64,000 nt of DNA. Source: Macrotrachela quadricornifera (Eukaryota > Rotifera > Eurotatoria > Philodinida > Philodinidae). The DNA is taken from the NCBI GenBank assembly GCA_022393335.1, contig JAJEKB010021216.1:174016-238015 (forward strand). Reading direction: 5' to 3'. Below, one piece after another: positions 8,302-50,644 of the stretch. The first letter of the stretch is position 1; every line of letters begins with the position of its first letter. The notes under the pieces were generated by a model, which worked only from the letters and a program-made list of their open reading frames with translations, was not told the DNA's origin and did no database searches. The position numbers and the translations under genes were made by a program.

Positions 8302-8310
8302 AAAAAAAAC
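8302..8310. repeat. Possible 9-bp target site duplication, left copy
   Basis: AAAAAAAAC lies directly outside the left terminal inverted repeat and is repeated at 24180-24188 directly outside the right one. Nine bases is the usual duplication length for Mutator-like elements. The word is low in complexity, so the match could be chance. Confidence 0.45.
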
Positions 8311-8354
8311 GGTTTACATGATTTACTGCCGTAGGATTTACTGCCGTGTAAACA
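8311..8354 (+). repeat. Left terminal inverted repeat with doubled 13-bp motif
   Basis: Two direct copies of GATTTACTGCCGT about 18 bases apart (8320-8332 and 8335-8347), preceded by GGTTTACAT and followed by GTAAAC. The same block occurs in reverse orientation at 24136-24179. Tandem motifs in a terminal repeat are natural candidates for transposase binding; that role is inferred. Confidence 0.75.
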
Positions 8355-8440
8355 TTTATTTACAAATAGATTTTCTGTTATAATAAATTATATGATTAAG
8401 TTAGATAAATGTAATGATCACAATAGAATTTTTTTTTTAT

Positions 8441-9209
8441 TTACTATGTCAAAAGTTTATTTTTCATCTCAAAGGTTCGTGAAAATCTATTAAAAATTAA
8501 CTGTAGTTCGTAATGAACGTTAAAATCAAAAATAGTTATTCTATGACAAAGGTTTACTTTCCTTCTCAAAGGTTTGTAAAAGTGGCTTCATTTCTAACTA
8601 TAGTTCGTGATAAGCTATATGAATAAAAAAAACACTTAATCTATGTCAAAAATTTAGTTTTCATATCAAACGTTTGTAAAAGTAAGCTTGATTTATAACT
8701 ATAGTTCGTAATGAATGCTGTAAACAAAAAATATCTATTCTATGTCAAAGATTTATTTTCTATATCAAATGTTTGTAAAAGTGCATTGAATTTTAACTAT
8801 AGTTCGTAATGAATTTTATAAATTTGAATAAAAAATTTATTTTATGTCAAAGGTTTATTTCTCGTGCCAAACGTTCGTAGAAATCTATTAGAATGTAACT
8901 ATTGTTCGTAATCAGCTTTATAAATAGAAAAACACTTATTCTATGTCAAAGATTTACTTTCCATGTCAAACGTTTGTAAAAGTCGTTTGGTTTCTAAGTA
9001 TAGTTCGTAATGAATGCTGTAAACAAAAAATATCTATTCTATGTCAAAGATTTATTTTCTATATCAAATGTTTGTAAAAGTGTATTGAATTTTAACTATA
9101 GTTCGTAATGAGCTTTATGAATGAAGAAAACACTTAATCTATGTCAAAAGTTTAGTTTTCATGTCAAACGTTTGTAAAAGTGCGTTGAAGTGTAACTATA
9201 GTTTATGTA
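8441..9209 (+). repeat. 100-bp-period subterminal tandem array, eight copies
   Basis: The word CTATGTCAAAG and its variants recur at almost exactly 100-base steps: about 8443, 8543, 8641, 8740, 8842, 8941, 9039 and 9139. Each unit also carries CAAACGTTTGTAAAAGT and AACTATAGTTCGTAATGA. Copies 4 and 7 are nearly identical, as are the parts of copies 3 and 6 that precede them, which indicates a 300-base higher-order unit. The spacing has no spacers, so this is a satellite, not a CRISPR array. Its place just inside the transposon end suggests subterminal binding sites. Confidence 0.85.
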
Positions 9210-9833
9210 TTTTTTTTAGTTTTGCTTAATAATGGAATTTTTATTTCTAATGTTTCTCAGATGTTTTGTTATTCAATATATTGAATCAAGCAATTTACAA
9301 GGTACGTAATTTCAGTAAATGGAATATTAGTACTGTATTATATTACTCCTTTGTCTTAATGGTATTTTGTGATCATTAACTTATCTTAACTATAAATCAT
9401 GTAACTTACTAATTTTCATTGATAATCATCAATTGTATACATGCGAGTTTTGCATTTTAAATTTTTAATATATTTTTTTATATACAAACTATTGATATGA
9501 AGATCGATAGTTATGTTTACGAGACGAAAGACAAGCGCGCCATTGATGAAATTGATTTGTTATTGCTAATTAGAAAATTCATAATACTGATGATCTAATA
9601 TATTGAACTCTTTAACTTTACAAAAAAAATGTATAAATGTACATTAAAAAGTATAAATAGAAGAGCAAGAAAAAGGAAATGATTGAAGCGAATAAAAGAA
9701 AAGCATAAAAGATAAGTGTGCTTTATGATTAAAGATTGTAAGAAATAAATTAGGAGTTTATTATTTTTTAACGAATAAAAGATTTGTATATTCATAAATA
9801 GAATATATATTATTTGAATGAAAAGAAAATAGT

Positions 9834-12300
9834 TTATTTTATTTTTTTCCAAGACAAGATAGTATTATTACATTCAGCATCTTTACATCGAATACTATAT
9901 GTATAGTTTTTAGTATTTATCATGATAGCTACATTGTTATGTCGATGATGATCTTTTTTCTTTGGACAGTATTTATAATGACCTGCTATATTAAAAAATA
10001 ATACATTTTTATTGTAAGTTCCTCTGATGCATGATTGTATATAGCCTTGATGAGTTGCATCAGATGTAATTATGTGTTCGACAAAAGTATTAAATATTTG
10101 AATGTCAGGTATAGATAAATCTAGTTTATTAATATTGTTTACATGTAATGAAGAAGAGACATTTTGATTTGTACTAGTATTTGTATCTAGATCAAGAAAA
10201 GATGAATGCTCTATGTGCTCATTAATTAATTTAATATTTATTAAATTTTGTGATATTGTAGCTGTTGAAATAGAAATGGGTGGAAAAGAAATAATAAATT
10301 TTTTATTTTGAAAATAAATTTGTGGTATTTGATGATTTTCAATTAAAGTAATTAAGGATTTTCTAAGAATATCATTACATGAATATTGTAGTGGAGTATC
10401 AAAAGGAAACATAATTGAAGGAATAAGAGGATTGTTTTTTCCATATTTTACACTATTAAATAAACGAAATTGTTGGTTTTTTGAGTAAACATTTATATCA
10501 ATAGCTGCAGTCCATTTATTTGTTGTACTTCGCACAAGTAAATATGAAATATCAGCAATTGAAACATAAATAATTGGTGATATACATGAAGTACAATGTT
10601 TCCGTAATATATTAACATAGGGACCTAAGATTTGAATTAAATTTGATGTTGTATATGGTTCTATTGGTGGATTGATATTAAACATCGTACATTTATGTTG
10701 AATAATTGATAATAGTAGAAAATGAATAATAGTTTTCAGAAAAATGCCAAGAGTTGATGTATTTTCAAATAAAACTGACGGTTTCGAGTGTATAAAATGA
10801 TAGGATATCTTTTCATTTGTTGATCTAGCAAAAAGATTTAATCGATTAATTTAGAAATAAAAAAAATTTTAGATTAAAAATAATATTTTATAGGATAGTA
10901 TTGCTAAATTTTTGAATAGAGTAAACAATAAATTTCATATCAATTGAAAGTTCGTCAAAAATAGAGTTTATTGATGAATAAATATTAAGAATCATGAAAA
11001 CTTTCAGAAGTTTTATACTTTTTATGCGTTGGAAAAATAAAATGTCAGTCATTCAAAAATAGAGTAAAATTTTTTTCTTAGGTATTTTTATATGATTCAA
11101 TAAAGCTAGACGACCTCTATAAACTGTATTTATGAAAACTTTTCTGAGTCCCTTTTTTGTGATAAAAAATTCAAAGAAATATTTGGAACATAAAAAATGT
11201 TTAAAAAGGTTATATTTTTGATATGGAAGGAGAATACTCGAAATTTCAATGAAATTAGGCTTTTCTGATTAGTTTTACTGTTGTTGATGTTTCAAAGTAT
11301 ACTCACTAAATACAGAGTAAAAAACTCTATCGAATGAGTATATCTTCAAGTATCTTACAGAAGGATACTAATTGAAACCAGCTGAATTTATCATAAAAAA
11401 TACTTTTTTTTTCCTATAACAAATGTAAAAAATGCTCGTTTTTTCAGTTTATCATCTGAATAGTTTTCAGGAACTTCTTATACGACAGCTCTAACTAAAA
11501 TTTTTTTCATGTACACTGTTTTGTAGAATTCGTCGAGCTTTATCAAATCACTTTAAAATATCTACGAAAAAGATTTTACTCTATTTTTGAATTAATGACA
11601 TTTCATTTTTCTAATGCATAAAAAGTATGGAATTTCTGAAAGTTTTCATAATCCTTACTATTTATTTATCAATAAACTCCATTTTTGATGGTCTTTCATT
11701 TGATATAAAATTCATTATCTACTCTTTTTGAAATTTTAGCGATACCTACCTATCAAACTATTATTTCCAATCTAGTAGATGAAATTTAATGAATAAAATT
11801 CTATTTTGAAGAGAGCGAGTGATAAAAAAGATTGTATGCTATGTTTTTTGAAAAATAAACATGATCACTTACGCTTGTAAAACTAAAAATTGTTTTAAAA
11901 CCTTATTAGTATAAGTTTTCAATGTATCAATAGTATTATTTGGAATATTTAGAAAATAATAAAGTATTTTAACACAAGATATAGGACCAATATAATGATT
12001 TTCTATATCAAGATTTTTGTTAATGAAGTATTCGTAATCAATATATGTTTTAACATGCTTGTGTGGAGGAATGGACTCATATAAAGTTCGATATGACATA
12101 GGACAATGTTGAAATAATGTTATTAGTTCTTCAATCGTAAGATAACAATACTGTCGAGACTTATTTTCTTTTTCTATACTTATGCAAATATCATTTGTTT
12201 GATTATGTTGATCTAATGATTGATTTTTTAAGTCAGATAAATGATGAGTTATAATTTTATGTGGAAAAAGCGTTTTGATTAAATTTTGAATAAATGTCAT
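9834..12300 (-). CDS. PrimPol-type primase-polymerase (archaeo-eukaryotic primase family)
   Basis: Exon 1 is 12300-11873 and exon 2 is 10824-9834; the donor is GCGTAAGT, the acceptor is TTTTTGCTAG, and phase 2 is shared. The product is 472 residues. Three catalytic motifs of the primase superfamily are present: DxE at D88/E90 (YIDYEYF), SxH at S150/H152 (KISYHF) and a lone Asp at D252 within IDINVYSKN. A zinc-finger region of the PrimPol/UL52 type follows near the C-terminus: C429, His 435-438, C456, C461. Human PrimPol is about 560 residues, so this is somewhat compact but complete. The family makes primers de novo and extends them. The gene is the leftmost of three minus-strand genes in the element. 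Its 1048-base intron holds a separate fold-back insertion. A domesticated host gene is unlikely given its position between the terminal repeats. Confidence 0.85.
10891..11753. mobile_element. Fold-back element nested in the primase intron
   Basis: The arms at about 10891-11130 and 11515-11753 are inverted copies about 80-85% identical. Shared words include CAAAAATAGAGTAAAAT and GAAAACTTTCAGAA. The middle is about 385 bases with no reading frame. Removing it leaves about 185 bases of intron. It encodes nothing and does not disturb the splice sites, so the primase may still be expressed. Confidence 0.75.
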
Positions 12301-12376
12301 GATGTACTTGTTATCATTATATAGTTATTAGATATTATTTTGAAATGAAAATATTATTAGGCGCTTAAATAAATAA

Positions 12377-12408
<32 letters not shown>

Positions 12409-12409
12409 G

Positions 12410-12790
12410 AAGCTTTGTTTTTCATATAAACTTGAAATAAAACAGATAGATTAGTTAATGCAGGAGGTGACATTTCGATATATATTACATAGATATCATC
12501 ATCAGACGAAACCACAGACGCTGTACATAGAAATAGACATCTTAAGTTAATAATTAATTCTATCTGATTATTCACTGATTTAATAAAATTGATTCATATT
12601 TTAAATGTGTTATACATTTCTTTGATCATACATTATATTAGTTTCTAATAGTTACTGGTTTTTATGTATGTGCAAGGTCTATAGTTTCATCTGATGATGA
12701 TATCTGTGTAATAGATCTTGAAATATCACGTGGTGTTTTAACTAATCTAGCTGTTTTGTTTCAATTTTATATCGTTTATACAATTGTTCG
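12410..12790. repeat. Inverted duplication between primase and RPA-like genes
   Basis: The minus strand of about 12416-12520 matches the plus strand of about 12677-12780 at close to 80%. Both translate to related peptides: VSSDDDIYVIYIEMS on the minus strand and VSSDDDICVIDLEIS on the plus strand. Similarity at the protein level as well as the DNA level leaves open that this was once a coding exon copied in inverse orientation. No splice sites joining it to a neighbour were seen. Confidence 0.55.
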
Positions 12791-12799
12791 CCATATTCA

Positions 12800-13424
12800 A
12801 TTCATTTTTCATATAGATTCATTATTTTTTAAGGTAAAACAAAGTATTGATTAGTTAGTCATTTAAAGAATATCAATATGAATTGTATTTGGGAAGTTTT
12901 GTGATGCTATAATTAAGAGAGTTTGCATTTAAATTTATATTGATTCAAAAAAAAAATATTTCGGATTTTATCGTTAGTTTAGATGATTTTTTAAAGGAAT
13001 TTTATTTTCTTTTTGTTTTAAAAATACATTTCAGATTAGTTTTATTTATGATATTGAAATATAATTGATATACTAATTTAAACACTTTTGAAAGAAATAA
13101 AAAACAGTTTGTAGATTTTGTTTTGATTAAAATAATGTCAAACTAAAAAATTAATTATTAAGACATGATTAGATATATTGTGCGTTTTTTAGAGTTAGAG
13201 AAGAGGTGACGATTAGCAAGCTTCATGTATTAGAATCATTTAAACAACAGTTAAACGAGTATTAGACATACTAATGAGTGTTCGTGAACCTAAATATTTA
13301 AAAAAGATTAAAAATTGTTTAGAAAAAAAGAATGTATAAAAAGCAATTTACCATTAAACCAATTAATTTTAACATACTTTAAATTTAAATATTTATTTAT
13401 AATTGTTACTGAAATTTTTTTTGC
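12800..13424. other. Spacer inside the transposon, no gene seen
   Basis: AT-rich DNA downstream of the RPA-like gene. I looked for a missing C-terminal RPA exon here and did not find one. Confidence 0.45.
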
Positions 13425-15039
13425 CTACCAGTAATAAAATAAAAAAAAAACAATCATTGATATAAAAAAAACCTGTTCGTTCCATAATATTAATCTGATA
13501 TGAAATTCATCCTGACTAACGTGAAGTTCACGTCTAGTCCATGTATTCGAGTTCGTATTTCCTATGGTTGTTCCATAGTCTCGTAAAACTTTCACCTGAA
13601 CATCTATATTATAGTTTTCATAAAATAAATTATTAATATTTTTAAAATTGGTTATTATTAATAAATACAAACCAATTATTGAATTTAATGGTAATATTTC
13701 AAGATCACGCAAGTGAATGAAATTATATATTAATTGATATTTGTACAGAACAATCACTTCTCGTACTTTAGTGGTTTTATTAACTATCAATTGATAATCA
13801 TTTGGTAATTTTTTATAAGCAGTATCAACTGTACGAATTGATAAGTTATTGAATTCATATGACTATTAATAGATATGTATATACATATATATATATATAT
13901 AATAGATTAGCTCTTTCCTAAAATTTTATTACTTTGCCTTCAATTAGTTCGTTCGCAATCATGTATGAATATAAATTAAAAGCTATTAAATTTATTTCGC
14001 TTGTTTCATCGGCTAAATCACAGGTAAAGATTTCACCTTCACCATTCGAATTAAAGTATGTTCTCTTTGGATGTTTAAATGTAACAATTGCTCTTAATGT
14101 CCATCTATATTATATGTATAAGAGGACATAAAGAAAAAAAAATATATAATTTATGATGACATTTAAATGATAGCATATCTAAATTATTATTTTGTAATAT
14201 CATGCAAAATTGTTTATTATATATATAAATAAAATAATGCATAAATTAGTTTATATAAATTAAAAATAAGCTCAGAAAATATATTTAAAAAGAAATATGT
14301 TAGTTAGAAAATGAAGAACTTACGGAAAATCGATATCAATATTAATTTCGGTAATTTTTAATAACTTTGTTTCATTATCTTCAATGAATGTTAAAATAAT
14401 ATTCTTATGTTATAGATAAAAATTATCGATTATCTAATATTAAGCGAATGAAATAAAAATAGTTCTAGCGCATTCGAAATACTTTTTTTCTATCAAAAAT
14501 ACTCCAATTTCTATTATTATTGTATTTTACTATTTTTATTTTTATCTTTATATAAAACATACTATTTTGTATATTGATGACTTCAATAGAATTTTCTACT
14601 ATTCCATGATTTTGATCGTATTGATTAATTGTGTTATTTGTATTACTATTATCATTTGGATTAATATTACCATTATCAGTACCAATTGTATTACTATTGA
14701 TATTACGATGAAAATTATGATCAGTTGCCCCATTTATATTATTATTAATATTATGATTTACAACAACATTATCATTATTATTAGGATTATTATTATGATT
14801 AATATCACCATTATCATTACTATTAATATTAGCTTCATTATGACTACCACGATCTTGTATATTATTTGTTAAATCTTGTTCGATTGATACAGCTGATGTT
14901 GAATGAATACTAATTTAAAGAAAAAAAAAATATATATATATATATATATATTTATAATAAGTTAAATATCTTACACTTCATTTGAAATATTATTTATCAA
15001 TTCTTCGTACATAGTAATTACAGATTGATGGACATCCAT
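13425..15039 (-). CDS. RPA70-like single-stranded DNA-binding protein
   Basis: Exons supported: 15039-14975 (start MDVHQSV), 14909 to about 14563 (an Asn-rich linker), about 14384-14324, 14104-13933, and 13862-13425. The fourth and fifth exons match the tandem OB folds of the large RPA subunit. Exon 4 has WTLRAIVTFKHPKRTYFNSN and GEIFTCDLADETSEINLIAF, as in DNA-binding domain A. Exon 5 continues with KSYEFNNLSIRTVDTAYKKL and, after a linker, RRELHVSQDEFHIRLILWNE, as in domain B. Junctions 1-2, 3-4 and 4-5 agree in phase. The junction between the Asn-rich exon and exon 3 is not settled. The protein would be about 360 residues, lacking the zinc-bearing domain C of RPA70. It lies between the primase and the DUF3987 gene on the same strand, as expected of a replication module. 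The end at 13425 is the first stop; the last residues are hydrophobic and may be read-through into an intron. Confidence 0.75.
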
Positions 15040-15155
15040 TTTAATCTGAAAAAAAAATTATATATTGCTAAACTATTGAATATCATTTGAAAGATTTGCA
15101 ACCGAAATTAATTTAAGTAAAAATAAAAAACGTCATATTTATTACATATTCAAGT

Positions 15156-17481
15156 TCAATTAGAAAAATGATTTGTTGATGATGGTACATTTCCTAGTTC
15201 ATAATCTATTGATAAAACTTCAGTTGTCAATGGTTCAGATAATGATGAAAATGCAGTTGTTAGTTGCTTAACGTTTTTCTTCTTCATAAAAGCAATTCCT
15301 TTTGGACCTGTGAGATTATTTGTTTCTTCAATTTTTCCCTTCCCTTCTTCTTCCATTTCTCGTAATACATTTAAATATTGATCTTTACTAATTTTTCTTT
15401 TAAGATTTGCAGGTAATGATGATAAGAGAAGACGATCACATGGATGATTCTCAATATATTTTTTTATGTGATTCACCTCCTCTGGAGGTATATCAATTGT
15501 ATCTAAAAAATAAGACTATAGAAGTGCTATACGCGCTAGATTAACATTTTTTTCCTATTAAAATATTTTATATTTTTATTTATTTTTTTTCTATATTTTT
15601 AATTATTATTTATCATTCAAATTCAGAATTCATATAGAAAATGAATTATAAGATAATTAGTTCTCTCTTTTAATTTTATTTTTTTTTTTAAAATTTATAT
15701 AAATAAATAAATAAAATATATCGATTAACCGTAAAATAAAAACAATGTATTTACTTACATTTATTTTTTCCTATAACATTATCTGTTGTAGGATCATAAC
15801 CAGCAAGTATTTTTGTTTGATTAAGATAAAATTTCGTGAGTAAGGATGCTCGGAACGTGGTATCATAGTCAATTAAATGATCAGATTCAGTTAATTGCTG
15901 CTCTGTACAAATTGATTTAAAGTGATCATCAAACATAGGAAATGATTCAATATTTTCAACAACGTTGAATAGACGACGAGCACTATTTTTAAGAATGTGC
16001 AAAGCAAGTGATAGTCTTTCGACACGTTCAATAGACTTTTGATAAAGACTATAATTTAGAACGTCAATGAATTTACTTAAGAAATAGATATACAAATGAA
16101 TTACCTTGCAATAAAGTCATCATCGTTAGATTTATCGGACGAAAGGACATCACAGTTATAAATTACTTCTTTAACAAACTTTTTTGCTAAATAAATTAAA
16201 AATAGATAAGTCAATATTTATAGTAATAGCGAAAGTACCTTCTTCATTATATATATATTCTTCGATGTTACGATGTAATTTTTTAGTAAGATAAAATAGG
16301 TGACTTAAGCTCGGAATTTTGTTGTTCGGTTCAACTATATCACGATTAGGACGATTTTTATAAGCTACGGCAATTAAAAATCTATTAAAAAGACCATCAT
16401 CATTTTGGTCTTGGTCTTTCAAACCAAATCCTAATATATGGAATTATAAAAACATATGTCAACAATTCACTTGAATTGCAATTATTGAAAGTGTATATGA
16501 CATTGTATAAATATTAAAAAATCAGTTTAAGATATTTATTGTTCTTTTCCGGTATATATTACCTGTTAGACATTCAATCGTTTTTTTTGGATGACCACCA
16601 GCAATAACATTCAGACGTGGTATTATCATGACATTTTGCCGACTAACTAATTGTCGACGCACAATACCGGTTGGACTGTAAAGTTCGCACATCAGTCCAC
16701 GATCATATGCCGTTCTATCAATTCTTGTACTACCAAAAAGACCAAGAAAGACGGAAAATTCATCCCAAAGCTATAATAACTTTATTTATGATATTTAATT
16801 AATAAAATTATATGAGACCTGTATTAAATTTGGCTGCTTCTCCAATTCACAACATAATGATTCCATATTGGCTGAAGCATTGATGGACGATTTCTGCACA
16901 GGAATAGTGTCTAATGCTTCCACAGCTTCACATGCTTCTTTTACAATCCTAATGGGTGCACTCTTTTTGGAACCTTTAAAAAAAAAAAAATGAATTATTA
17001 ATAAAAATTGTCAGAACTGTTAATGATATTTTATTGGTTTTAGCTGCTTTTTAATAATAAGAAAAATCAATTCATATTTTTTAAAAATAAAAAAATTATT
17101 TTTAAGTGTCTTCTGAATTTATTCTTATACTATAAGTCAAAAGATATATTTAGATTTGATTTTTTTTCTTTATAAACGATTCTGGGAACAACTTTTTTTC
17201 TTTTAATTATTTTGAAGAATAAACAACATACCACTACCACCACATAAAATACCAAAGAGAATTAATGGTATATTATAAGCCTGTGCACCTTTTAATGTAG
17301 CTCCCATTGACCAATGACAAATAGCAATCAATGTAGTTAAAAAAATATAATGTATTGGAATACTGGTTGTTTCAGCAACTCCATTTATTATTAAAAAAGA
17401 ATATTCATCCAAGATAAGTTTTAAATCCAATTTTTCGTTAAAACACTTCTTCATCCGTCTAATTCTTTCACACTTTTCCAT
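15156..17481 (-). CDS. DUF3987-type P-loop protein (putative primase-associated helicase)
   Basis: Seven exons: 17481-17232, 16973-16819, 16770-16563, 16430-16239, 16186-16105, 16048-15759 and 15502-15156. All six junctions agree in phase and give 507 residues from the ATG at 17481. A Walker A-like loop GGSGSKKS spans exons 1-2 (about residues 81-88). A Walker B-like WDEF is at residues 137-140. An arginine-bearing DDGLFNRF follows at 215-222. The preceding segment IPIHYIFLTTLIAICHWSMG and the RQLVSRQNVM stretch fit the DUF3987 family, known beside or fused to primases in phages and bacterial elements. The C-terminal 100 residues are charged and may form a winged helix. DNA unwinding is inferred from the family. 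An upstream in-phase exon ending at about 17545 (VDRLVGK) is possible, so the N-terminus is uncertain. Loss of the usual Gly before Lys in the P-loop is unusual. Confidence 0.7.
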
Positions 17482-18268
17482 ATTTTTCTATTATCAATAA
17501 TATAAATAAGCATTAATGAAAATGATAAATCAACTCTTACTCCAACCAAACGATCAACAGTGGACGTGAAATGATTAAAAGTGAATCTTTTTTTTTTTGA
17601 ATAAAAGACGGCGCCAAGTGCTTATGTAATTAACATTAACTCAAATAGTAAATAGGAGGGAAAAAAGATGAGCACAATAATTTATTACATCTATAGATAA
17701 ATATATATATTCATTTAGGTAAATATGAAAATTATTTGTCTCTATAAATCATATATAGTGATATCATAAGAACAGTTAATTTCATGTATTGTTAAATAAT
17801 AGAGTAGATGAAAGAGATAATAAAAAAGAATTTATTATAAAAATAAAACTAATATATCATAAAAAAATTGAGCATAATTCATTTTTTTCTTAATGACAGA
17901 ACTAAAATTTATTACTAATGAATAATTATATTATTCCATATGTAAAAGAAGAATCTTCAAAAAGTTATATTCACGATTACATTGATTACTTTATAGTATA
18001 TCACTGAATCGATTTATTTTTAGTATTACTTCCTCATCATTTCTATCCGATAATTGATTGAGATCATATATTTCAATGGATATCAAATTATTATATATAT
18101 AATATGTTGTATTTCAAAAAAAAAAGTCATTCATTATAAGAAAAACAGTTTTATAAATTACAATTTATTTATTAATTAAGAATTTAAAAAAAAGGTAAAG
18201 ATTAGATCTATTTAATATACTCTATGTTTATGCTTAATCTTTTTTTTTATTTAAGAAATTAATACAAT
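17482..18268. promoter_or_regulatory. Divergent intergenic region inside the transposon
   Basis: The DUF3987 gene leaves to the left and the transposase leaves to the right, so this roughly 790-base AT-rich interval must hold at least the transposase promoter. No specific box could be defended. Short A and T runs are common throughout. Confidence 0.35.
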
Positions 18269-20188
18269 ATGTCGTTTACCACTACAAATGAAATGGGTAT
18301 GTTTTTTTCTCTTTAATCAATTAAGTGATTATTTTTATAAATTTTTATTCTTATATATTCGTCAAAATAAATATCCTATATGTCGTATTGAATAAGTTTC
18401 ATGTATTAAACAATCACGTTTTATTTAAAAAAAATATTGAGATATTGTAGTTTTCATTTTCTAATGAGGTTTAATATATATATACATTTGTCCTTTTATT
18501 AAGCTTCACAATCAACAAATAAAGATATTAGTTATATTAAATCAACGCATGGAAAACGTCAATTAGTGTTTCATGGTGCAAGATTTTGTGTAAAACAAAA
18601 TAATTTAAATTCGACTTTATGGAGATGTACCAAAGGAAATTGTCCTGCAAGTGTTTCAATTTCAAATAATGACACTATACTAAAAGTAAATGAAAACCAT
18701 AATCATCTTATTGATTTAAATGATATTAAACTTTTGGAGCTTCGCCATAAATTAAAGCATGAAGCACAAACAAGTTCCGAACCAATTGATAAAATAGTCG
18801 AATTCTCTTATTCAAATATGATTACAAAAGAAAAAATAACAGATTCAATCGTAAAATTACCTACAATAAAGACATTAAAAAATACGGTTAGTAAACAACG
18901 TCGACGAATTAGACCACGATTACCAAAATTACTTGATGATTTACCTTTTCCACTTCCACTATTATACACATTAACTAAAAATAATGATAAATTTCTTTTA
19001 TTTGATGGACTTTTAGGTGAAAAACGAGGTTTAATATTTTGCTCTCAAGAAGATATTCAATATTTAGCATTCCAAAAATTCTGGTATGCAGATGGGACGT
19101 TTTATACTTCACCATCCATATTTTATCAAATATACAGCATACATGCATTTGATGAAGGATTATCAACACCTTGTGTTTTTGCATTGTTAGCTGATAAATT
19201 TGAAGCAACTTATCATAATTTATTTTCAATATTAATAAATAAAATAAAAGAAACATCAAATATGATTCAACTTGAATGTATTACTATTGACTTCGAAGTT
19301 GCTGTAAAAAATGTATTTGATAAACATTATCCACATGTTAAAGTAAGATAAAAATTCAATTATTTAAAGTTTATTTATATAAGAATATCATTTTCAATTA
19401 TTTCTTTTCTAAAACTATTTCATTAACCAAATTTTAGAAAAAATTGATATCAACTTATTTAAGAAAAACAGATAAAATAAGTATTTATAAATAAAATACG
19501 ATTTTTGTAAATATAATCCATAAAAATAGAGTGAATTAAAAAGCAAAATTTTATAATTTTGTAATAGTTTAACATTATTGTTTTTTTAATATTTATGTAG
19601 GTTAAAGGGTGTCTTTTTCATTATGGAAAAGCACTTTTTCGGAACTTCATGAATTTGAATTTAAAAACAGCTTTTCAAGAGGATGAATCTCTACGTATTT
19701 GGTTCAGAAGTTTTGCAGCAATTGCACTATTACCAGAAATCGATATGGCCGAAGCAATTGAATATCTACGTGTAATGAAACCATTGTTATATGAAAAAGA
19801 AATTGATTTATTTTTAGAATATCATAATAAAACATATGGTATTAATAGTAGATTTCCATCAACAATGTATAATCACTATCGAAATCTTAATCCTCGTACA
19901 ATTAATTATCTTGAAGGACGTCATAATAGATGGAAAAAAAGATCTACGAAACCTCATAATGATATTTACATGTGCATTGATATGTTCAAACATGAACAAT
20001 TGTTAGCATCAGATGAAAGACAAAGACATGAAGCAGGAGCAGCTGCACCAAAACGACGAAAAAAGATTCGAATAGCTGAAGAATCATTATGTCGTTTATG
20101 GGATAAATTAGAAAAAAATCAGATTAGTCGAGAAAAATTTTTGAAAGGTGCAGGACTTCGTTATTTTCAATATTTGAAAATTGAATAA
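18269..20188 (+). CDS. FLYWCH-MULE transposase
   Basis: Exons 18269-18296, 18504-19342 and 19601-20188, with GTATG and GTAAGA donors and AAG and TAG acceptors. Phases agree (1, then 0) and give 484 residues. The N-terminus is a FLYWCH zinc finger: GKRQLVFHGARF, then WRCTKGNC, then a paired HNH. The MULE catalytic core follows, with first Asp D206 in WYADGTF and second Asp D272 in TIDFE. The family motif GCLFHYGKALFR comes just after the second intron. The likely catalytic Glu is E394 in NYLEGRHNRWKK. A basic tail (KRRKKIR) is near the C-terminus. All DDE residues are present and no frame is broken. The enzyme cuts and joins transposon ends and in this family usually leaves 8-11 bp duplications, in line with the 9-bp word at the ends. 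AATAAA overlaps the stop, and a second copy lies at about 20192. It faces away from the three replication genes. Confidence 0.9.
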
Positions 20189-20199
20189 AGTAATAAACT

Positions 20200-23100
20200 G
20201 ATAAATCTATTTATTTTTTCTGAATATAAATTTAATGTACATTCAAACTAATTGAAAAGGTATGATACACAAGTTTATAGAGGAAGTTTATTGATTTTAT
20301 ACATAAGATTAATCTAAATAATGTTTTGCTTTATTTTTAGTTTTTGTTCATATTATTTAAAATAGCAAAAAAATATTGATTGATTTTAATAATGTTTTAA
20401 ATATTTTTATTATATTGAAATTGTTTAAATTATTTGATGAGAGAATTGATCTAGATACGATTATTCACAGCAAATATATATACATGTGTTCTATTCGAGA
20501 ATGGAATGTACTGGACATTGAAATGATTTTTTTAATTTATGTATTATATTATATTATGTATATACAAATGTATATTCATTAAAAAATATTATTATGAATA
20601 TGGCTATTTGTTGAATAAATTAATAATTTAGTGCCTTTTTTTATAAAGCAGTATAGTACTTGAGATTATTATAACAGAATATAACTGAATACTTTTGTGA
20701 ATTTGCTCTTCTAAAAAAATGATTTTCTATACGAATCTTTTTCATTACTAAAATAATATACATTTCTTTCAGCATATGATGTTGTATAAAATTTGATATA
20801 TTTTTGATTGAAATAATAATACGTATTGTAATTTGAGGATGATAGTATGGTCTGCGATAATCGTAATCTATGTTTTTTATTTATTATATGTATATAGTAA
20901 ACTTTTTATTTTAGTGTTGTTGATTGATTGTTTCATGTAAACAGAAAATGTGATTCTATATTTAATACTAATATAGAGGAGTCGCTTACTATGTATAATT
21001 ACGAGATTTTCAGGCGATTGGCAGCTATAATATTATTGAATTTCAAAGTTAATATGTAATGTTTGACAGAACTGATTTATAATATGATAGATTTAATAGT
21101 TATATATATCTATATAAATATTAAAAACCAATAATTATTAATCTGCTATTGTCATCATTTATTTTGTACAGCTCATATTAAATCTGAAAAAAAAAAGAAT
21201 TATTTATGTATTATTTATTTATTCAATGGTTATTTATGAATTCAGTTTGTCATAATAGAATATATGAATTATAATAATTCTCAATGTTGTTTGATAATCT
21301 ATCGTCTATTATTAGTTACAAGGACGAAAAAAAAGATGATGTAAAATCTTATTGTCTTTAAATAGATTTTTTTTGTAAAACACATGATATCAAAACTAAA
21401 CTCAGTATGTTTCATTTTTTGAACATTCATATAATATTATGTGTTCTACTAATATTAATATCTTTTCCAAATGCTTATTAGGGAATATTTTTCTTTTAAA
21501 ATGCTGTTGCAAAACAACGTGATATATTTCTTGAAACCAATATTGATATCTATAAACGTATATTCAATAATACTTGATTTCTTTAAATGATTTTCAATCT
21601 TATCCTAAGAAATTGGAGAAATTTGAATTGTCTATTATAGAGTTTGAATGCTAGTATCATGCAGGTTATAACAATAATAATAAAAATTATAAAAAATAGA
21701 TGAAGTATATTTAAAAAAGAAAAAAAGAAATTTTCTACATGAAGGATAAACAAAACAAAAATATGATATTAATAGATTAGTGAATAATCGTTTAGAAAAG
21801 TCGTCACTATCTTATTTGTAATATGAGGATTACAATTATTGAAAAAATAAATAAATAAGTAATTATACTATTGATATTAAGTTTTTTTTCTCAGTGTTTT
21901 TATTAATGTAGCATCAAGGAGAAAAGCTGCTATTGAATGAACTAGTATTTATTTAAGATAATAATCTTTATCTCTCTAATGATATCTTCAGATTTTATTA
22001 TTTTTTACTGATTTTATCAAGAACTATATATGTATCTTTTTATACGTATATGTCGATTGTTCAATATTAACATATATTATAGTGCTGTCATAGAACGATA
22101 GCAAATCGTCTACTAGCTATTGTAATAAATGCTTGACTAGCTGAAACAGAGAATAAATTCATTTTAAATAAATAATGCTCTATTTTATTAAGCTATTTAC
22201 ATAAATATCATTTCAATAAATATACCAACAAACCATGAAACCTTAACGTAGTTTATTCTTACTTTAAGGCTAGCAGTGCTTTGATCAATTATACGAGCTT
22301 GTTAAAAAAAATATGTATAATATTGTTCTATACTGATTCACTTGACTATTCCATGACGTCATTGCAATATGAACCTTATCCTGGTTGACCTATAAGTCTT
22401 CTTGACATCATATTTTTATTATTTTTTAGTTCTGTTGAAATTTCGAAATCGCGCAAAATGCATACTTCTACATCTGAAAGACTTTAGTAGGATCGAATAT
22501 TACTAATAAAACTAGTATATTTTACATACGAAAAATAGATATAGACTTCTTTTATATTAATATTAGTTATATAAAATAAATTCTTTTCTTTTTAAATATT
22601 AATGTGTATTTTATTTTTAATGCTACTTTTTTTTATTCTTAAAACCAGCTTACAAAATACTCAGAATAATCGTTGAACAGTATTATTAATTGTATAGTAT
22701 TTACCAATTAATAACTTAATAGTGGAATATTAAGTTGTCTCAAATGCATAAAATCATTTTATTTATAAGAAATAAAGATGTTAATACAGTAATATTAAAA
22801 GCTTTAAAAAAAAACAGAAAAGAATACAAATATAATTTTTTCATTTTGTAGAGAAAAATTTCTAAACATAACAAAAATTTTCAATATCATCTCAAATTTC
22901 TGAAAATAACCAATTTCTTGATGAACATCATCTGTAACACAATATTCTCTTTTTATATATTTAATTTTTTTTATTAATCAGTAAATATATCAGTTTTCAT
23001 TTTATTAGGAATTAGCCATAGATTTCTATAATTCTATAGTGAAGTAGAAACATTAAAAGTATATTTATCCATTAATTTAAAAAGAAAAAAGCGAGAAACA

Positions 23101-24040
23101 AATTAATAAATGCATGATACAATACATATGCAAAGGCATATATGTAAACAAACGGTAAGATCGAATATACATTTTTTTTGTTTAAAAGATATAAGAACAT
23201 CGTATTAATAATTGAGCAATTTCAAACTGAAACAAATAATTCAGCATTCATATTAATATTTTTTTCCTTACTATTTTATGATATACAATTATTTTTATTA
23301 AAGAATTTGTTTCAAGAAAATGAATATCCTATCTAATCTGTTTTGCATAAATATAAACTCCTATAATTTGTATAGATTTTACTTGACATTTTTTTCTTCT
23401 AACATATGGCTTTTTTTAAAATAATTTTATTTAACATAATACATGCATTCATTTCTCAAATTATATTGATTAACATATTGCAGCATAATCTTCCATAAAA
23501 TTGATAAATCAATTTGTGAAAACTCATTTTATATCAATCCAATTCTTTTTCTTTATAATTGGTGTTTTTTTTATTCATATAAACAACAAATATTGATTTA
23601 TGTAATTTCAAATACGACATTGGTTTTATAACAAATACTATATTTTTGAATTGAGAATCGATCACAAAATAGATTCACTATATCTATTTTTTTGCGTTGC
23701 ATTTCGAAAGATGAGATTTATCATAAAGTATTAAATTTGATAGATTTATAAAACGATTTCATTCATTTAGTACAGTAAAATTCATACAATAAGCATGCAT
23801 ATATCCACATAATAAGAGTCAATTCATTGCATTCTTTTTATCGATTAACGTTAAAAACGCAATTCATCACTCAAATATAAAAATTCATTCTTTACAAGAA
23901 TACTGTATCGTATAAAACAATAAAATTCAATTTTTTTTTTCTATTATAAAATATACGGTGCCGCTCTAAAATAAGAATTCAACAACTATTCAATATATTT
24001 CTCCTTTTTGTAAATCTCTTACATCTTTAAAGAGAGCAGA
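20200..24040. other. Right-hand non-coding part of the transposon
   Basis: Nearly 3.9 kb downstream of the transposase with no protein-like frame on either strand, no RNA gene recognised and no satellite like that at the left end. It is very AT-rich. A decayed fifth gene, or structural DNA needed for replication, cannot be excluded. Confidence 0.5.
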
Positions 24041-24123
24041 GGGGGGGGGGGGGGGGAAGCGAATTATTTTAATTAACTCTTTTTTGAAACAAGGATTTTA
24101 ATTAAATGTTTTTTGAAACAAGG
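24041..24123 (+). repeat. 16-G run and 29-bp tandem duplication near right transposon end
   Basis: Sixteen consecutive G at 24041-24056 stand out in DNA with almost no G-runs. Immediately after, TTTTAATTAA....TTTTTTGAAACAAGG occurs twice (24067-24094 and 24096-24123). Both lie within 140 bases of the right terminal repeat. The G-run could form a quadruplex or simply be slippage. Confidence 0.7.
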
Positions 24124-24135
24124 CGCGTTATAAAA

Positions 24136-24179
24136 ATTGTTTACGGCAGTAAATCCCACGGCAGTAAATCCTGTACACG
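24136..24179 (-). repeat. Right terminal inverted repeat with doubled 13-bp motif
   Basis: Read on the minus strand, it has GTGTACAGGATTTACTGCCG, then a second GATTTACTGCCGT after GG, then AAAC. This matches the left end over about 42 bases. The two inner motifs are 17-18 bases apart at both ends. Confidence 0.75.
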
Positions 24180-24188
24180 AAAAAAAAC
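24180..24188. repeat. Possible 9-bp target site duplication, right copy
   Basis: AAAAAAAAC directly outside the right terminal repeat, matching 8302-8310. Low complexity limits its weight. Confidence 0.45.
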
Positions 24189-37557: not shown

Positions 37558-40500
37558 TTAATGTTCACCTGTACTCACATCAGAGTCAAACTCTGTTGGA
37601 ACAAAATTTTCATTCATAATACCATCACCATCGATACTCGAGCAATAAGTGATAGCATAGTTCAAACGTTCATACATTATATCAGTTGTCGAATATTGAG
37701 GTAAGTCTAATGTAAATCCACATGTATGTGCTCCTAAAACAAGCAAATGTTGACTTACGATAAAAGGACATATAGAATTTGATTACTATGAAAACTAAAA
37801 GATTCCGATTTGAACTTACTTGGAAGTGTTCCATCTATATTTTCATTAGGTGCATCGTAGGGATAAATTTTAAATTTGGATATAAAATCTTCATCTCGAC
37901 TTGGTAATGTACATCGTCCCCAAACAAATATTAAAAATAGTTTTTTCTGTTCTTCATTAAACATATCATTTATAACAGTCCAAAATCGTTGAATAAATGG
38001 TGAATCTACACTATAATCGCCACCATAGTTAGTATTTCTCTTTAATAATTCAACATCGATTTCACCTTTTCCACACACAGCTTCTTCAAGTTCTTTGGGT
38101 GTAAATAGACTCAAAAAATAACCTGGAATAACACTATACAAACCTTGACGAATAAATTCAATTTGTCTTTGAAATTCATTTAATCGATATTCACGATAAT
38201 AATTACAATATTCTTTAAAATTATGAGCTGTTATAGGAATATCTTTTCCACCTGGAATAAGTTCATAAGTTTGTCCTGCTGAACTAATAATTTCGAAACG
38301 GAAATCATCCATAATACTACTAAATAAATCATTAATATCACTATCAGTTCCAATAGATTCTATTTGTTTGATATTTTTTTCCATTTCATTAACCATTGTA
38401 AAACTTTGCATATCAATAGCTTCAATATCTTCCAAAGTTATTTTTTCATGAACTAATTGTTTCCATAATAAAATCGGAAATTTTAAATCTAAATAATGTT
38501 TTTTACGTATTGCCATACCCATTAATTGTCCAATAAATCGATATTGTTTTTTAATTTTATTTGAAATTGATCTATTTGGTGGAAAAACATTTGGAATCCA
38601 ACGATCTCGATTTAAACCACTATTCATTCGTCCATTTGGACATAAAATAAATAATGATAATCGTGTACTACATATATCTGAACAAATACGTGTTATTGAA
38701 TCACGATATGGTCCACCTTGATCAGTACTATGCATTCCAAGATATTGTGCTAACCATAGACGATCATTCTGCATACGAAATGTTAAATGAGCTTTATCAT
38801 GTAATTGTTCATAAGCTTGATTAAACATTGTATATTCATCATTATTATTACTATATGCACTAGCTTTAACTGTATCAAAATTAACTGTAGGAATATTATC
38901 ATTACTTTGTACTTCTGTACAGAGTAATGATGAATTAAATAATTGAAATTTCATTAGATACAATATATATGCTCGACCTGTTCGAATTTTATCTGTTAAA
39001 ATACTTTGTTTAGGTAATAAACTAAAATCAATTATTGTTACAAGATTTTCAATAAATAGACTAAATTGATATATTAATTTTGCACGTATTTGTATATAAA
39101 TAGCTGGAATATGTAATAGAGATGGATAAATTTTATAGTATGTAGGATTTGGTACAGATTCATTTGGTAAATTATTGATTAATTCAATGATAGAAGTATT
39201 AATAAGAGGATTATTATTCATAAAATGAATTAATTGTTGATCAGCAATTATATCAAAATAACTATTTGATTTTTCAACTTCATCTCGAGTAAATTGGAAT
39301 TTATCATCGAATGAAGCATTAGATTGCATGAGAAATGTTTCTGGAAATGATGTTTGCTTAATTTTATCTGTTAAAACATTAATAATATCGATTGCTGTTA
39401 ATAGATCATAAAATTTTGATGATAATTTTGTTAAATCAAAATCAAATATAACATTCGATTGTTTATTAAAAATACTAGTAAGATTAATTGCTTTTTGTTG
39501 ATATTGTTGTCGTTCTAATAATAAAAAAACAATATCCATAATAATAATTTGAAATTTTTTCATCATTCGAGTATTTCTTGATGTTGGATTTGGTGGTAAT
39601 TCAATAAATAATTGAAATAAAAAATGTTGAATATATTTATTTAAATTAAAATTTTTACTTATTTGAATTAAACTAAAAAGAAAAGAGAAACAAAAAAAGA
39701 AATGTTTTCCCATGTATATCTTCATTTCATTTACTTACATAGAAAATAAATGTAAAATAAATATTTTTGATTGATGCGATTTACTTAAAAGAAATAGATC
39801 AAATAAAATATTAATTATTAATTCAGGAAATAAAATTGAAATAAGAAAATCAATTTCATTTTGTTTTATTATTATTGTTGTTGTTTGATCAGATAAGAAT
39901 TTAATAAAAATATTAAATAATTTAAGAATAAATTTAAAATTTGATTGTTTAATCATTGATTGTCTATCGATAATAAATCTTTCATCATCATAATCATAGA
40001 ATATTTCTGATGGATTTTTTAAAAACCGAATCCATTGAAGAATTAAATCTTTTTGTAAATGATAAAGTAATGGAGCTTTATCTTGGATTATTTTATTTGT
40101 AATTTGATTATTTGTTGTTGAATAGTATTTAAATAATTCATTAGTTTCTATTTTTAAAATTGAATTTATTAATAAACTCATTCGATCAATATTTTCATCT
40201 GTATTTAAACGTCTATATGTATAATGATAATCTAATAATCGTAATAATATAATAATAAATGAACAATCACCAAATTTTTCTAATGGAAATAAATTTGTAC
40301 CATCGTTTGACCAAATTTTTAATATATTTAAAATAGTATAATGTGCATATATTGATATTAATTCATGTTCACAAATAACACGTAATTCATAATATTGTTT
40401 ATGTGAATATTGATTTGATTTTGGAATTTTTTTATGTTGATTTTCAATGATTATTGTTTGTTCTTGTATAGGTTGTTTTAAATCAAGTAATTGATAAGTT

Positions 40501-43500
40501 AAATCAGCTTCTTCAGTTAGTATTGATTTATCTCGAATCCAATCAGTAAGACTATCATTAATATCTAAATGATGAATAGCTTCATAAAACCATTTTTTAT
40601 CAGTTGATAGTTTTTCATCTTTATTAATTATGTTGTTAAATGATGATGTTTGTATATCATTCCAATGAATAAGCAATATTTTACTAAGATTATCTAATGC
40701 TTCATCAGTATTGAATTCCGAGAAATTTATTAAATGTTTTAATTTTTCTTGATCAATCAAATGACTTAATTTTAAAAGAATATTTTCTTTAGTATTGAAT
40801 TGTTCTATAATATTTGTCTTTGTACGAAGAATTGTATCAAGTAATTGAATATTATCTGTCATATTTTGTTTCATAACAGATTTAATTGATGATTCATCAT
40901 AACCAATTAATAATAAACTTGGTGAAATAATTGAAAATGGTGGTATAACTAAATTATCTAAAGAATAGTTTGATGATTTCATTTTTTCATCAATTAGATT
41001 TGTTGTTCTATTCATATAAGTTATTGATTTACATTCAATTCGAAGTGTATCTTCATTCATTGTATTCTTTGTTAAATCTATTTCTCGAAATAAATCAATT
41101 CGATTATTTTTTATCATCCATTGATTATTATCTATATTTACATCAAGTTCTAATAAACCATTTATATAGATTTTTACTGATTTTTTATCAATAGAAATAA
41201 GTAAACGTATATATTCATTTAATTTTAATATTGATTCATTTTTAATACCAGTAGATAAGCAAATATGACCATGATCAGAAATATAAATTTCTAATTGGGA
41301 ATTATTTAATGATATTAATGTTATTTGTTCATTATCTTTTGGTAAATTTGTTATACATATATCTAATATTAATGTATATTCAAACCATGGATCAATTGAT
41401 TTATCTAAAACAAGATAAGTTTTATTACCAAATAATTGTATTATTGATTGATTAATTTCATTATTTGATTTAAAATATTTTGTTTCATCATGATCAATTT
41501 GATATTTTTTCTTTTCCCATTTATTTTCATCAAATGATTCTTCAAATGGAATAAGTAATTCATTTAAAAAATATATTTGATTTTTATTAAATATAAATGT
41601 ATTAAAATGTTTTCGATAATCTTTTAATCGATGATAATCTATTGTTATATAAACAAGACCATAAATAAAAAGACGTTGAATATGTTCTTGTGTAAGTGCA
41701 TATTTCCAAATAGCTAAATTTTTTATTCCAACTGTAATATTAGGTAAAATATGAAAAATAAATTTAGTTATTAATGGATATTCAATTATTTGATATTCAT
41801 TATTAATATAAATTATTATTTGTTGTATATTAGAATCAAAAATAATAGCTATACGATTATTTTCAGTAATTTTATTTGATGGTATTCGAATTGAAAATTG
41901 ATCAGATGTATCAAATATTAATAGAATAATATCAGAATTATCAAAATTTGTTAATATTTCAAAATCAAAACAAATTGTTAATGAACCATGGTGATCAATT
42001 ATAAATGGAAAACCATTATGTTCTTTTGATAATATTAATTGATTTTTATCAAAAGTAAAAATATTTTCAATATGATCATTATTAATAAAATCACGTAGAA
42101 AATTTTTTGTTTTTATATTTCGTTTTGTATAAATATAATCTTGAATATTCTCACCAATTAAATATGCATTATAAGGATAAGCAACAAATGCTTGATCAAT
42201 ATTAATTAATTTTGGTAATAATAATGGTTTATAACCTTTTGGTAATGGACATTCTAACATATCTTCTGGACTAAATATTAATTCACAACAACTCATTGAA
42301 TAACTATTTACTTTTAAAGTAATACCAGGAAAATAAGTTGCACCATATCCATTTGGTAACATATTACATACTGTTGTTGTCACACCAATTGTTGATTTAT
42401 GTTGAAAAGCTGTACCAAAAAAATGTCCATTTAACCAATAATTAATTCGTATATTATCATCAGATATTTCAATTCCACAACCACAAATATCATTTGTTGT
42501 CCAATGAATATTTTCTGATAAAAATGAATATTGTTCATTATTATTATAAAGTTTATTTTGTGAACCATCATAAGACCATGAATATTTATCATTACCTAAT
42601 CCAATTGTATTTGTTGGTGTAAATCCAGTTGTTGCCCAACCAATTTGAGCATTAGCACCTTCAAGTAATCGAACACAATAATACCATTTACCTTCAGTTA
42701 ATCGTAAATTATTAATAATAAATGTTGCCATTGATGTATCAGCATTTTCTGATATTAAATAAATTCGTCCTGGAAATTTATGTTTAATACCACATTCTTC
42801 TAATAGATATGTATTAGAAATTGTTGATGGTAGAGGAACAATTTCAATATCATCATTACCAATTCTTCCATATTTAAAATATTCAAAATCTTGTTTTGAT
42901 ACATTTGATTTCCATTGATGAATTTGTGATAAAATATTTATTGTTAAATGATCTTGTTTAATTGTATAATCATTCCAATGAATAAATAATGAATTATTTT
43001 TATTATCATTTAATTGTTCATATTGATTTAAATTTAAATAATATTGTTCTAAATATTGTTTATTTAATAAATGTAAATTAATTAATTGATTATTAATTGA
43101 TTTTGATAATAAATTTGATATAGATAATTTTGCAATAATTGATGCATAAGATTTTTCTATAAAAATTTCAATTAATTTTTTATTATTTAATATATGATAT
43201 AAAGTAGAAATTGATTGACGTTTTAATTGTAATAATAATAATGATTTAGTTATTGATGTATCAATTTCAATAAAAGATATTAATATATCAAAAAATGTAT
43301 TTAAAATATTATTTATATTTGGTAATATAAGAAGATTTGGTGGTGGAACATCAATTTCAATTTGTAATTTATTATCATTAACTTGTTGAATTTTATTTAT
43401 TTGAATATATTCAATTAAATATGGTAAATTATCAATTGAATTTGAATCAAGAATATTATTATCAATATGAATAATAATTGCTAATTGATTTTCATTATCA

Positions 43501-46500: not shown

Positions 46501-47994
46501 AATGATATTGAACTATTGATTGTATTAGAATTAAATTGTTTACTTGCATTTATAGTATTATCAAAATCGATATGAGTCAAGATAACAGCAGAAATAAATG
46601 GTCCGGTAAATTGTTTTTCATCAAGTTCCATTACTTTTGTATTTGGATATGCTCCAATTGATGTAAGATAGTCTGAATAATAAAAAACAAAACAATTCAT
46701 TCATTCGAATTATGACTGAACTTGATTTAAAATACATATGAATATGTTTAAGCATCAATAGTAAAAGCAAACTATCTGAAATTTTTATCATAAATGAAGA
46801 ATTCGAAATCTCTTCCTATGTAGATGATCGATAGATAGAAATTTCTATTCTATATGAATCAAAGCATTATGTCGATCTCTTGCATATACTATCTGAATGT
46901 AATATTATAGGAGATGTGTTAAGAATAAAGTAGACTATGTAGTTATTTATAGATAAAATAAAATTCTTACCTATTATCTGTTTGGAATATATGTTTTCAT
47001 TTTCAATATGTTTTTGATGAGAATCTTCATTTATATGTTCAATTACAGATTTTAATTGTTCATTTTCTAATTTTTGAATAGTTGTTGTTAAACCATTATT
47101 TAATTGTATGAAAAGATTTCGTACATTAAAAATATCGGTAGTATTAAATATTAATTGATTAAGTATAGGTAAAATATCTTTGAAAGAATCTTTAGCAATT
47201 GCAAAACTTAGAAGAATTATAATAATTTTTTCATTTAAAATTAAATCATTTGATGGTAATAATTGATTAATATAATCTTTCAATGGTATTAATGATTTAA
47301 ATAAGAAATTATTTTTCTTATTTGTTGATGATAAATATTTCATTGGAATATTTTCATATAATTGACTTGCTAATGTTAAGACTTGTTGAATAACAGATGG
47401 ATCATGTTTTTCAGCTGATTTTATTAATATTAATAATATTGATGAAAATGATTCTGTAGCAAGAAGAGATATTTCTTGATCTTGAATAACAGATTGTTTT
47501 TTCATTTGTTTATCAAATTCTGTTTCTTGATCATTATCATTATTAATATTTTCAGAAGATGAATCGATTATTGTTTCTGTAATAATATTTTGATCGAGAT
47601 TTTTTTCATTAGTTAATTTCTTTTCTAATGATATTTGTAAATAATTTTGTTTTTCTAAAATAGTTTTAATATCATTTATTGATTGTTGAATATCTTTAGC
47701 CATAGGTAAAAAAATATTATTCATTAGAGTTGTATGGATTTCATTATTTAGTTTTTCTAATTCATTCCCATTAGCTAAGAAATATATTTCATTTTGAATA
47801 TTTTGTATTAATTTTTTTTGAGAATTTGTAATTAGATTATCATAATTTGATTCAATTGAAGATTTCGAACATAGAAATACATTGGTATCATTTGTATCAA
47901 TACCAGATAGAATTGTCTCATTACTATGTAGGATTCCATCCGTTTTTATATATTCAATCAGTTTGGTATTGATATCGGACAATTGTTGACCCAT
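37558..47994 (-). CDS. Giant SPRY-HECT E3 ubiquitin ligase
   Basis: Four exons: 47994-46971, 46672-39739, 39672-37820 and 37733-37558. All phases agree, giving 3328 residues. Residues 1 to about 1600 are a long helical region rich in Leu, Ile, Asn and Lys, without a recognised domain. A SPRY domain is at about 1635-1800 (GKWYYCVRLLEGANAQIGWA, WSYDGSQNKLYNN). A concanavalin/LamG-like stretch follows to about 2130. The HECT domain starts near 2930 (WLAQYLGMHSTDQGGPYRDS, then RFIGQLMGMAIR). The catalytic Cys, about 3275, is in the last exon within RAHTCGFTLDLPQYS. The enzyme accepts ubiquitin on that Cys and passes it to substrates. The SPRY-plus-HECT layout recalls HERC1 and HECTD4; no RCC1 repeats were seen, so I give no symbol. 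Exon 2 at 6.9 kb is very large for a bdelloid. The tail after the Cys is about 53 residues, slightly longer than usual. Confidence 0.88.
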
Positions 47995-47999
47995 TTTTC

Positions 48000-50592: not shown

Positions 50593-50644
50593 TTCTTTGT
50601 AAGTGATGAAAACGGCAATCAATTTGAATTACAAAAAATTTCAA

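Follow-up and report, generated by a model that had tools for sequence, protein, structure and literature searches.

A Mutator-superfamily transposon of a bdelloid rotifer with a candidate replication module of PrimPol, RPA-like and DUF3987 genes

Transposons of the usual cut-and-paste type borrow the replication machinery of their hosts. Helitrons use Rep/helicase rolling-circle proteins and have neither inverted ends nor target-site duplications. An excerpt of a review on giant transposons describes RPA genes in Helitrons, a primase in Teratorn and enlarged CACTA elements with 4-5 reading frames, and speculates that a primase, a polymerase and an integrase could together yield new large transposons (PMC6431247). 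DUF3987 domains fused to archaeo-eukaryotic primases (AEP) in bacterial mobile elements are predicted to be replicative helicases, according to an extract of PMC5862659. The transposases of IS256 insertion sequences are described, in an extract of PMC7780238, as resembling those of Mutator-like elements (MULEs) and as using a replicated circular intermediate; the reference list of that paper includes work which, by its title, likens MULEs to cut-and-paste hAT elements. Here we analyse a window of 64,000 nucleotides from the bdelloid rotifer Macrotrachela quadricornifera (contig JAJEKB010021216.1, positions 174,016 to 238,015; coordinates below are those of the window unless a contig is named). 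Window 8311-24179 is a single Mutator-superfamily transposon of 15.9 kb; its ends carry GATTTACTGCCGT in duplicate, a 9-bp target-site duplication flanks it, and it contains genes for a MULE transposase, a PrimPol, an RPA70-like protein and a DUF3987 protein. On balance we favour the view that it is an autonomous DNA transposon encoding its own replication-initiation set.

The inverted arms of the element (8312-8347 and 24143-24178) are 36 nt long with 92% complementarity, and each holds two copies of GATTTACTGCCGT, a motif with no further match in the window at up to 2 mismatches (4 matches against 0.78 expected from shuffling). The four genes were modelled from GT-AG joins and protein similarity. 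An earlier note on this DNA had described these genes between inverted ends, and the ends, the Pfam matches and the structure matches confirm both the anatomy and the identities; its four intact frames stand in that no model has an internal stop, but they are not simple open frames, all four genes being spliced. Comparisons of the models showed that: 1) The transposase matches the Pfam families MULE (PF10551, E 2.8e-10) and FLYWCH (E 2.9e-7), and the motifs YADGTF (D), TIDFE (D) and NYLEGRH (E) are what we take to be its DDE triad. 2) The ATPase matches DUF3987 (PF13148, E 1.2e-12), and from family membership and the published prediction we regard it as a putative helicase; the earlier proposal of this role is upheld to that extent, but the P-loop lies off the canonical Walker A motif. 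3) The RPA model, with OB-fold matches in Pfam only below cutoff, aligns over residues 153-354 with solved RPA70 (E 1.8e-14), a region covering the DBD-A and DBD-B OB folds. 4) The PrimPol model has no match in Pfam and is similar to human PrimPol in solved structures (E 8.8e-6). A PrimPol homologue of Rotaria sordida, 80% identical to the window protein, has a structure model with a mean predicted local distance difference test (pLDDT) score of 79.7, and a Foldseek search with this model found human PrimPol as the best match (E 2.2e-13), followed more weakly by herpesvirus and poxvirus primases. The window protein has the sequences YIDYEY, SYH and AIDINVY, presumably the PrimPol motifs I, II and III, together with a C/H finger. 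In an alignment of 17 rows selected out of the homologues counted below, neither motif III nor the finger varies, and every row long enough to reach motifs I and II contains them. By its catalytic motifs and fold the protein is hence predicted to be a primase of the human PrimPol type (AEP).

We searched the host assembly (450 Mb) with the doubled end, using the reversed sequence as control, and obtained 41 exact matches and 57 with up to 3 mismatches, against 0 for the control, so that a chance origin of the ends is rejected. Both ends are present at 9 places, which have the 36-nt ends in common; six of these are full-length (the window element included) and three are internally deleted. Four full-length copies measure 15,851-15,869 bp, and the other two, of 16,436 and 16,734 bp, carry insertions of 581 and 874 bp, respectively; the five copies besides the window element show 99.1-99.6% identity. 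Exact 9-bp duplications flank six of the eight testable end-paired copies (the window element, C3294, C4223, C4678, C5139 and C4062), C4275 and C4521 are without one, and C4512, which adjoins N, is not among the eight. The duplication in the window, AAAAAAAAC, is a low-complexity A-run, and a flank match here is therefore not unique evidence; other copies have complex 9-mers. Four of the six full-length copies keep every one of the four genes open; of the other two, C4678 has a single stop in its PrimPol gene, and C4275 has lost the modelled start codon of the transposase and has seven additional in-frame residues in DUF3987. The four-gene unit is thus mobile and has multiplied recently as a unit, as the earlier note had suspected from the intact frames. 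That note had also raised the possibility of an assembly join within 8-24 kb, which is rejected as six copies have the same structure, and of copies with only a transposase between these ends, of which there is none among the other eight end-paired places (five have all four genes, and three are deletion copies in which no more than a 3' portion of the transposase gene is left). The several full-length copies with the same genes, ends and duplications that it anticipated do exist, but no empty site was found in the one flank search, with C4678, whose 11 flank matches comprise its own two flanks (100%) and nine partial matches at 71-83%.

Ten contigs match all four genes, including C5239, C5240, C2058 and C2910 beyond the full-length six; C5239 and C5240 appear to represent a single locus that was assembled twice. 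Outside the deletion derivatives, 51 of 59 RPA matches and 64 of 70 DUF3987 matches, those of high identity, fall on these ten contigs, the remainder being 27-45% identical, and an origin of the matches in host housekeeping copies is thereby rejected. The deletion junction from 9761 to 19288 is common to C4062, C1594, C3168 and C4388, and a second, from about 12400 to 20045, to C4512 and C4106. Among 14 end-bearing loci compared with the element, no match in L027 exceeded the threshold, and in L005, L007, L023, L025 and L028 the match is limited to its last 47-145 bp, L007 and L028 being one place. In L023, L025 and L028 the similarity is confined to the terminal 114-145 bp at the right end of the element, and these loci possibly belong to another non-autonomous family. 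C4453, which adjoins a long N run, has the same end and a transposase that is 67-72% identical. The number of 15-bp end units varies: C3756 (17235-17307) has five, seen as four overlapping matches to the doubled motif, and the left end of C4521 (L021) has three, with mismatches.

Selection has acted on the genes of the element. Variable ungapped sites in the six young copies number 48 of 5481 in coding and 200 of 10330 in non-coding sequence (p 1.2e-7). Ratios of non-synonymous to synonymous divergence (dN/dS) were obtained with C2910 and C2058, two older copies, as references, in compared frames free of stops and frame-shifting gaps. They are, respectively, 0.12 and 0.11 for DUF3987, 0.35 and 0.39 for RPA, and 0.56 (p 0.07) and 0.42 (partial gene, p 0.02) for PrimPol; the value for the MULE transposase is 0.27 against C2058 only, that of C2910 lying outside the compared piece. 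When the three replication genes are pooled, purifying selection is evident against both C2910 (p 1.5e-5) and C2058 (p 4.5e-7), by which a role as passive cargo is rejected.

Sequence matches further indicate that all four genes recur, differently ordered, in a second MULE lineage that is deeply diverged. Contigs C4653 and C4127 contain relatives of the PrimPol (42-54% identity), DUF3987 (24-29%) and MULE (33-38%) proteins. C4653 has the order RPA-DUF3987-MULE-PrimPol, all in one orientation, which differs from the window element; its DUF3987 pieces match PF13148 (E 2.5e-17) and its RPA-like pieces a solved RPA70-type chain (5.8e-5), while the RPA piece of C4127 was recognised by eye only. The DUF3987 P-loop of this lineage reads GYPG followed by SNKST over an exon border (spliced by eye), with the Lys and Ser/Thr retained and the canonical Gly absent. 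A search for inverted ends in C4653 and C4127 yielded only AT-rich noise, C4653 running into N. Hence, of the earlier concern that the replication genes might be found in unrelated surroundings, it holds that they occur elsewhere, but they do so with a second MULE lineage. The element in C4127 (L029) is itself interrupted at ~257.6-260.1 kb by transposase-like reading frames on the minus strand (hAT-like by eye). C3375 (L040) has remains of RPA and PrimPol next to a related left end, with no MULE within the 8 kb examined; this diverged left end lies at 737, and an end motif at 4244 is nested ~3.5 kb inside. In C3585 and C2501 a weak PrimPol match (26-32%) and a MULE match share an orientation and are 8-9 kb apart, possibly marking a third lineage; two peptides from the 5 kb between these matches in C3585, tested for DUF3987, gave 0 Pfam matches.

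In the protein collection we found at least 62 homologues of PrimPol, at least 18 of DUF3987 and at least 37 of MULE. Among the matches listed, those named by organism are all from bdelloids (Rotaria and Adineta, and for MULE also Didymodactylos) but for one wasp MULE (29%), the others are environmental sequences, and the window proteins are nearest to Rotaria. Gene predictions from four other bdelloids link pairs of the four genes. RPA-PrimPol fusions are predicted in R. magnacalcarata (P0024, P0052-P0054) and R. sordida (P0019), and a MULE-PrimPol fusion in A. steineri (P0031). Contigs of equal length (75,385 in A. steineri, 13,236 in A. ricciae) suggest that MULE and DUF3987 are linked in these two species, and a shared length of 19,436 suggests the same for PrimPol and DUF3987 in R. 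magnacalcarata. From the multiple intact copies, the selection, the second lineage and the linkage in other bdelloids, we therefore take these genes to form a conserved module for replication that partners with MULE transposases, neither random cargo nor a misassembly.

The host also has a compact MULE (C2956, ~68.65-70.77 kb), the closest compact relative of the window element here, with a 48% identical transposase, ends that repeat GATTTACTGTCCG and arms 69% alike; in the 5.1 kb examined we found no PrimPol, RPA or DUF3987 gene. In a transposase tree of 21 rows, with a midpoint root and several long branches meeting, the window type groups with four bdelloid proteins (99/99). This group falls within a set of 13 rows (100/100) that also includes C2956 with its relatives (98/97) and two rows from Didymodactylos, in an order that the tree does not settle. 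The second type (C4653, C4127 and P0031 of A. steineri; 100/99) stands apart and is joined by C4609 (100/100), which has no PrimPol match among those listed. The module may thus be either ancestral and lost in the simple MULEs, or subject to swapping of partners; the tree favours neither.

These observations allow us to propose how the element might multiply. The transposase would pair the ends and then free the element or copy it out; the DUF3987 protein, as a putative helicase, would open the double strand, possibly at the 99-bp subterminal repeats (Table 1), which are possible protein-binding or origin repeats; the RPA-like protein would cover the single strands; and PrimPol would lay primers, and perhaps some DNA too, for extension by a host polymerase. 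The transposase would then insert the resulting copy, which would probably be extrachromosomal and circular as in the related bacterial IS256, and a 9-bp duplication would arise. The self-directed replication or excised circle of the earlier note, like the action of helicase, single-strand-binding protein and primase on element DNA, is what we infer from the gene set. More tentatively, with a confidence just short of even, we suggest a class of self-replicating eukaryotic DNA transposons distinct from Polintons and Helitrons, defined by an AEP-primase/RPA/DUF3987 module that is transferable, is found with at least two MULE lineages and supports extrachromosomal replication before reinsertion.

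Several points weigh against self-replication. Sister compact MULEs manage without the module. A circle or tandem junction had 0 matches in the assembly, which is weak evidence because assemblies drop such forms. Among the young copies alone, the pooled ratio of non-synonymous to synonymous polymorphism (pN/pS) is 0.69 (13 synonymous and 35 non-synonymous), which at p 0.17 is not significant, and that of PrimPol alone is 1.28, so that this comparison is weak; PrimPol also gives the weakest selection signal against the older copies. The RPA model appears to be without the N-terminal domain and DBD-C, to judge from its extent (an Asn-rich start, and an end after DBD-B). The P-loop of the DUF3987 protein, GGSGSKKS, deviates from the Walker A consensus GxxxxGK[ST], retaining the Lys and Ser/Thr with the Gly before the Lys replaced, and the structure model of this protein is poor (pLDDT 38.9). 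More generally, the replication role of the proteins is argued from gene content and selection.

The main rival to an autonomously replicating element, which we consider unlikely, is gap repair at the donor site: a cut-and-paste MULE whose replication proteins help to recopy the 16-kb element into the gap at the excision site, copy number rising through this repair and not by way of an extrachromosomal replicon. The recurrent deletion derivatives with common junctions are as interrupted repair would leave, and both the compact sister that functions without the module and the failure to find a circle junction in the assembly agree with it. Hosts, however, already supply gap repair, and it is not evident why an ATPase at a dN/dS near 0.1 should be kept for it; each common junction could also just as well have arisen once and then been multiplied in trans. 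Distinctly less probable is the descent of the element from an independent replicon, plasmid- or virus-like, with primase, single-strand-binding protein and helicase, that took MULE transposases as integrases more than once, the transposase being accessory. The replication genes do accompany two distantly related MULE lineages, module-free transposases lie both inside the 13-row set and beside the second type as if partners change, and the primase fold also resembles viral primases; but there is no capsid, packaging or other polymerase gene, for which the reading frames leave no room, loss of the module in simple MULEs fits the tree equally, and the best primase match is human PrimPol. PrimPol and RPA are damage-tolerance proteins of host type. 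That the genes are captured passengers in the style of Pack-MULEs, or only dampen host DNA-damage responses without replicating the transposon, would accord with this and with the capture of genes by MULEs (an excerpt of PMC6431247), but is the least probable of the three and very unlikely in view of the purifying selection, the same gene set in the second lineage and the linked predictions in other bdelloids.

The layout of the element is given in Table 1. The inverted arms in the PrimPol intron look like a nested small element or a hairpin, and an Rfam search of the element gave 0 matches. A G-run at 24043-24057, close to the right end, is unusual for a stretch so AT-rich. The GC content of the element is ~21-28% per 2-kb step and that of the flanks mostly 28-35%. 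Base composition alone says little, however, because the window has a second AT-rich stretch (38-48 kb), and this one is explained by an ordinary host gene, a long one on the minus strand (37755-47997) that encodes a HECT ubiquitin-ligase domain (E 7e-56) and a SPRY domain. A reading frame resembling seven-transmembrane receptors (7tm_1, E 7.2e-18) lies at 49618-50628, also on the minus strand.

Table 1. Parts of the transposon and its flanking duplications, in window coordinates
Feature	Coordinates	Strand	Details
Left target-site duplication copy	8302-8310		9 bp, AAAAAAAAC; same as 24180-24188
Left terminal inverted repeat	8311-8347	+	2x GATTTACTGCCGT
Subterminal tandem repeats	8444-9203		unit ~99 bp, 7.7 copies
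PrimPol gene	9834-12300	-	472 aa; exons 12300-11873 and 10824-9834
Inverted arms within PrimPol intron	10886-11757		238 nt, 82% complementary, 396 nt apart
RPA70-like gene	13240-15039	-	360 aa in 8 exons; Asn-rich N-terminus followed by DBD-A and DBD-B
DUF3987 ATPase gene	15156-17481	-	7 exons, 507 aa; P-loop GGSGSKKS
MULE transposase gene	18269-20188	+	3 exons, 484 aa; FLYWCH finger
Right arm	20189-24142		~4 kb, no reading frame >80 aa
Right terminal inverted repeat	24143-24179	-	
Right target-site duplication copy	24180-24188		9 bp

The earlier note knew of no described MULE with this gene set, and none appears in the open PubMed Central (PMC) literature as covered by titles and abstract openings among the matches listed, a scope that leaves subscription papers, preprints and Repbase outside. 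A term search of a survey of bdelloid transposable elements (PMC7943196) for Mutator, MULE, MuDR, primase, replication protein and DUF3987 found all of them absent, and an extract of PMC8277862 mentions neither primase nor RPA. Like FLYWCH-finger MULEs, the window element has a MULE DDE transposase, terminal inverted repeats and 9-bp duplications; ordinary MULEs and C2956 have a transposase and no replication genes, to which it adds PrimPol, RPA-like and DUF3987 genes. Pack-MULEs carry gene fragments and no transposase of their own, whereas here the transposase is intact and so are the other genes, which are under selection. Polintons/Mavericks are likewise large eukaryotic DNA transposons with replication genes within inverted ends, but they use a protein-primed PolB and a retroviral-type integrase (see also an excerpt of PMC6431247); neither is found in the window element, in which no long reading frame remains for a PolB beside the four genes. 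Some Helitrons encode RPA, as it does (same excerpt), but unlike them it has inverted ends and duplications, and no Rep/helicase gene was found among its frames. IS256 elements, with a MULE-like transposase and a copy-out/paste-in route through a replicated circle (extract of PMC7780238), rely on host replication; for the window element, no circle junction was found in the assembly. Bacterial mobile elements also combine an AEP primase with DUF3987, for replication of the element (extract of PMC5862659); these are prokaryotic and the two domains fused, whereas here the genes are separate and spliced, and PrimPol and RPA are of eukaryotic type.

A MULE with a primase, a single-strand-binding protein and a probable helicase of its own would merge the life styles of transposon and replicon. 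Bdelloids are noted for horizontally acquired genes, and a replicating extrachromosomal phase, if true, bears on how they gain and keep mobile DNA. With young intact copies, deletion derivatives and a compact relative in one genome, the benefit of self-replication is directly testable. A MULE of this kind would also give eukaryotes a counterpart to those mobile elements of bacteria in which an AEP primase and a DUF3987 ATPase are combined.

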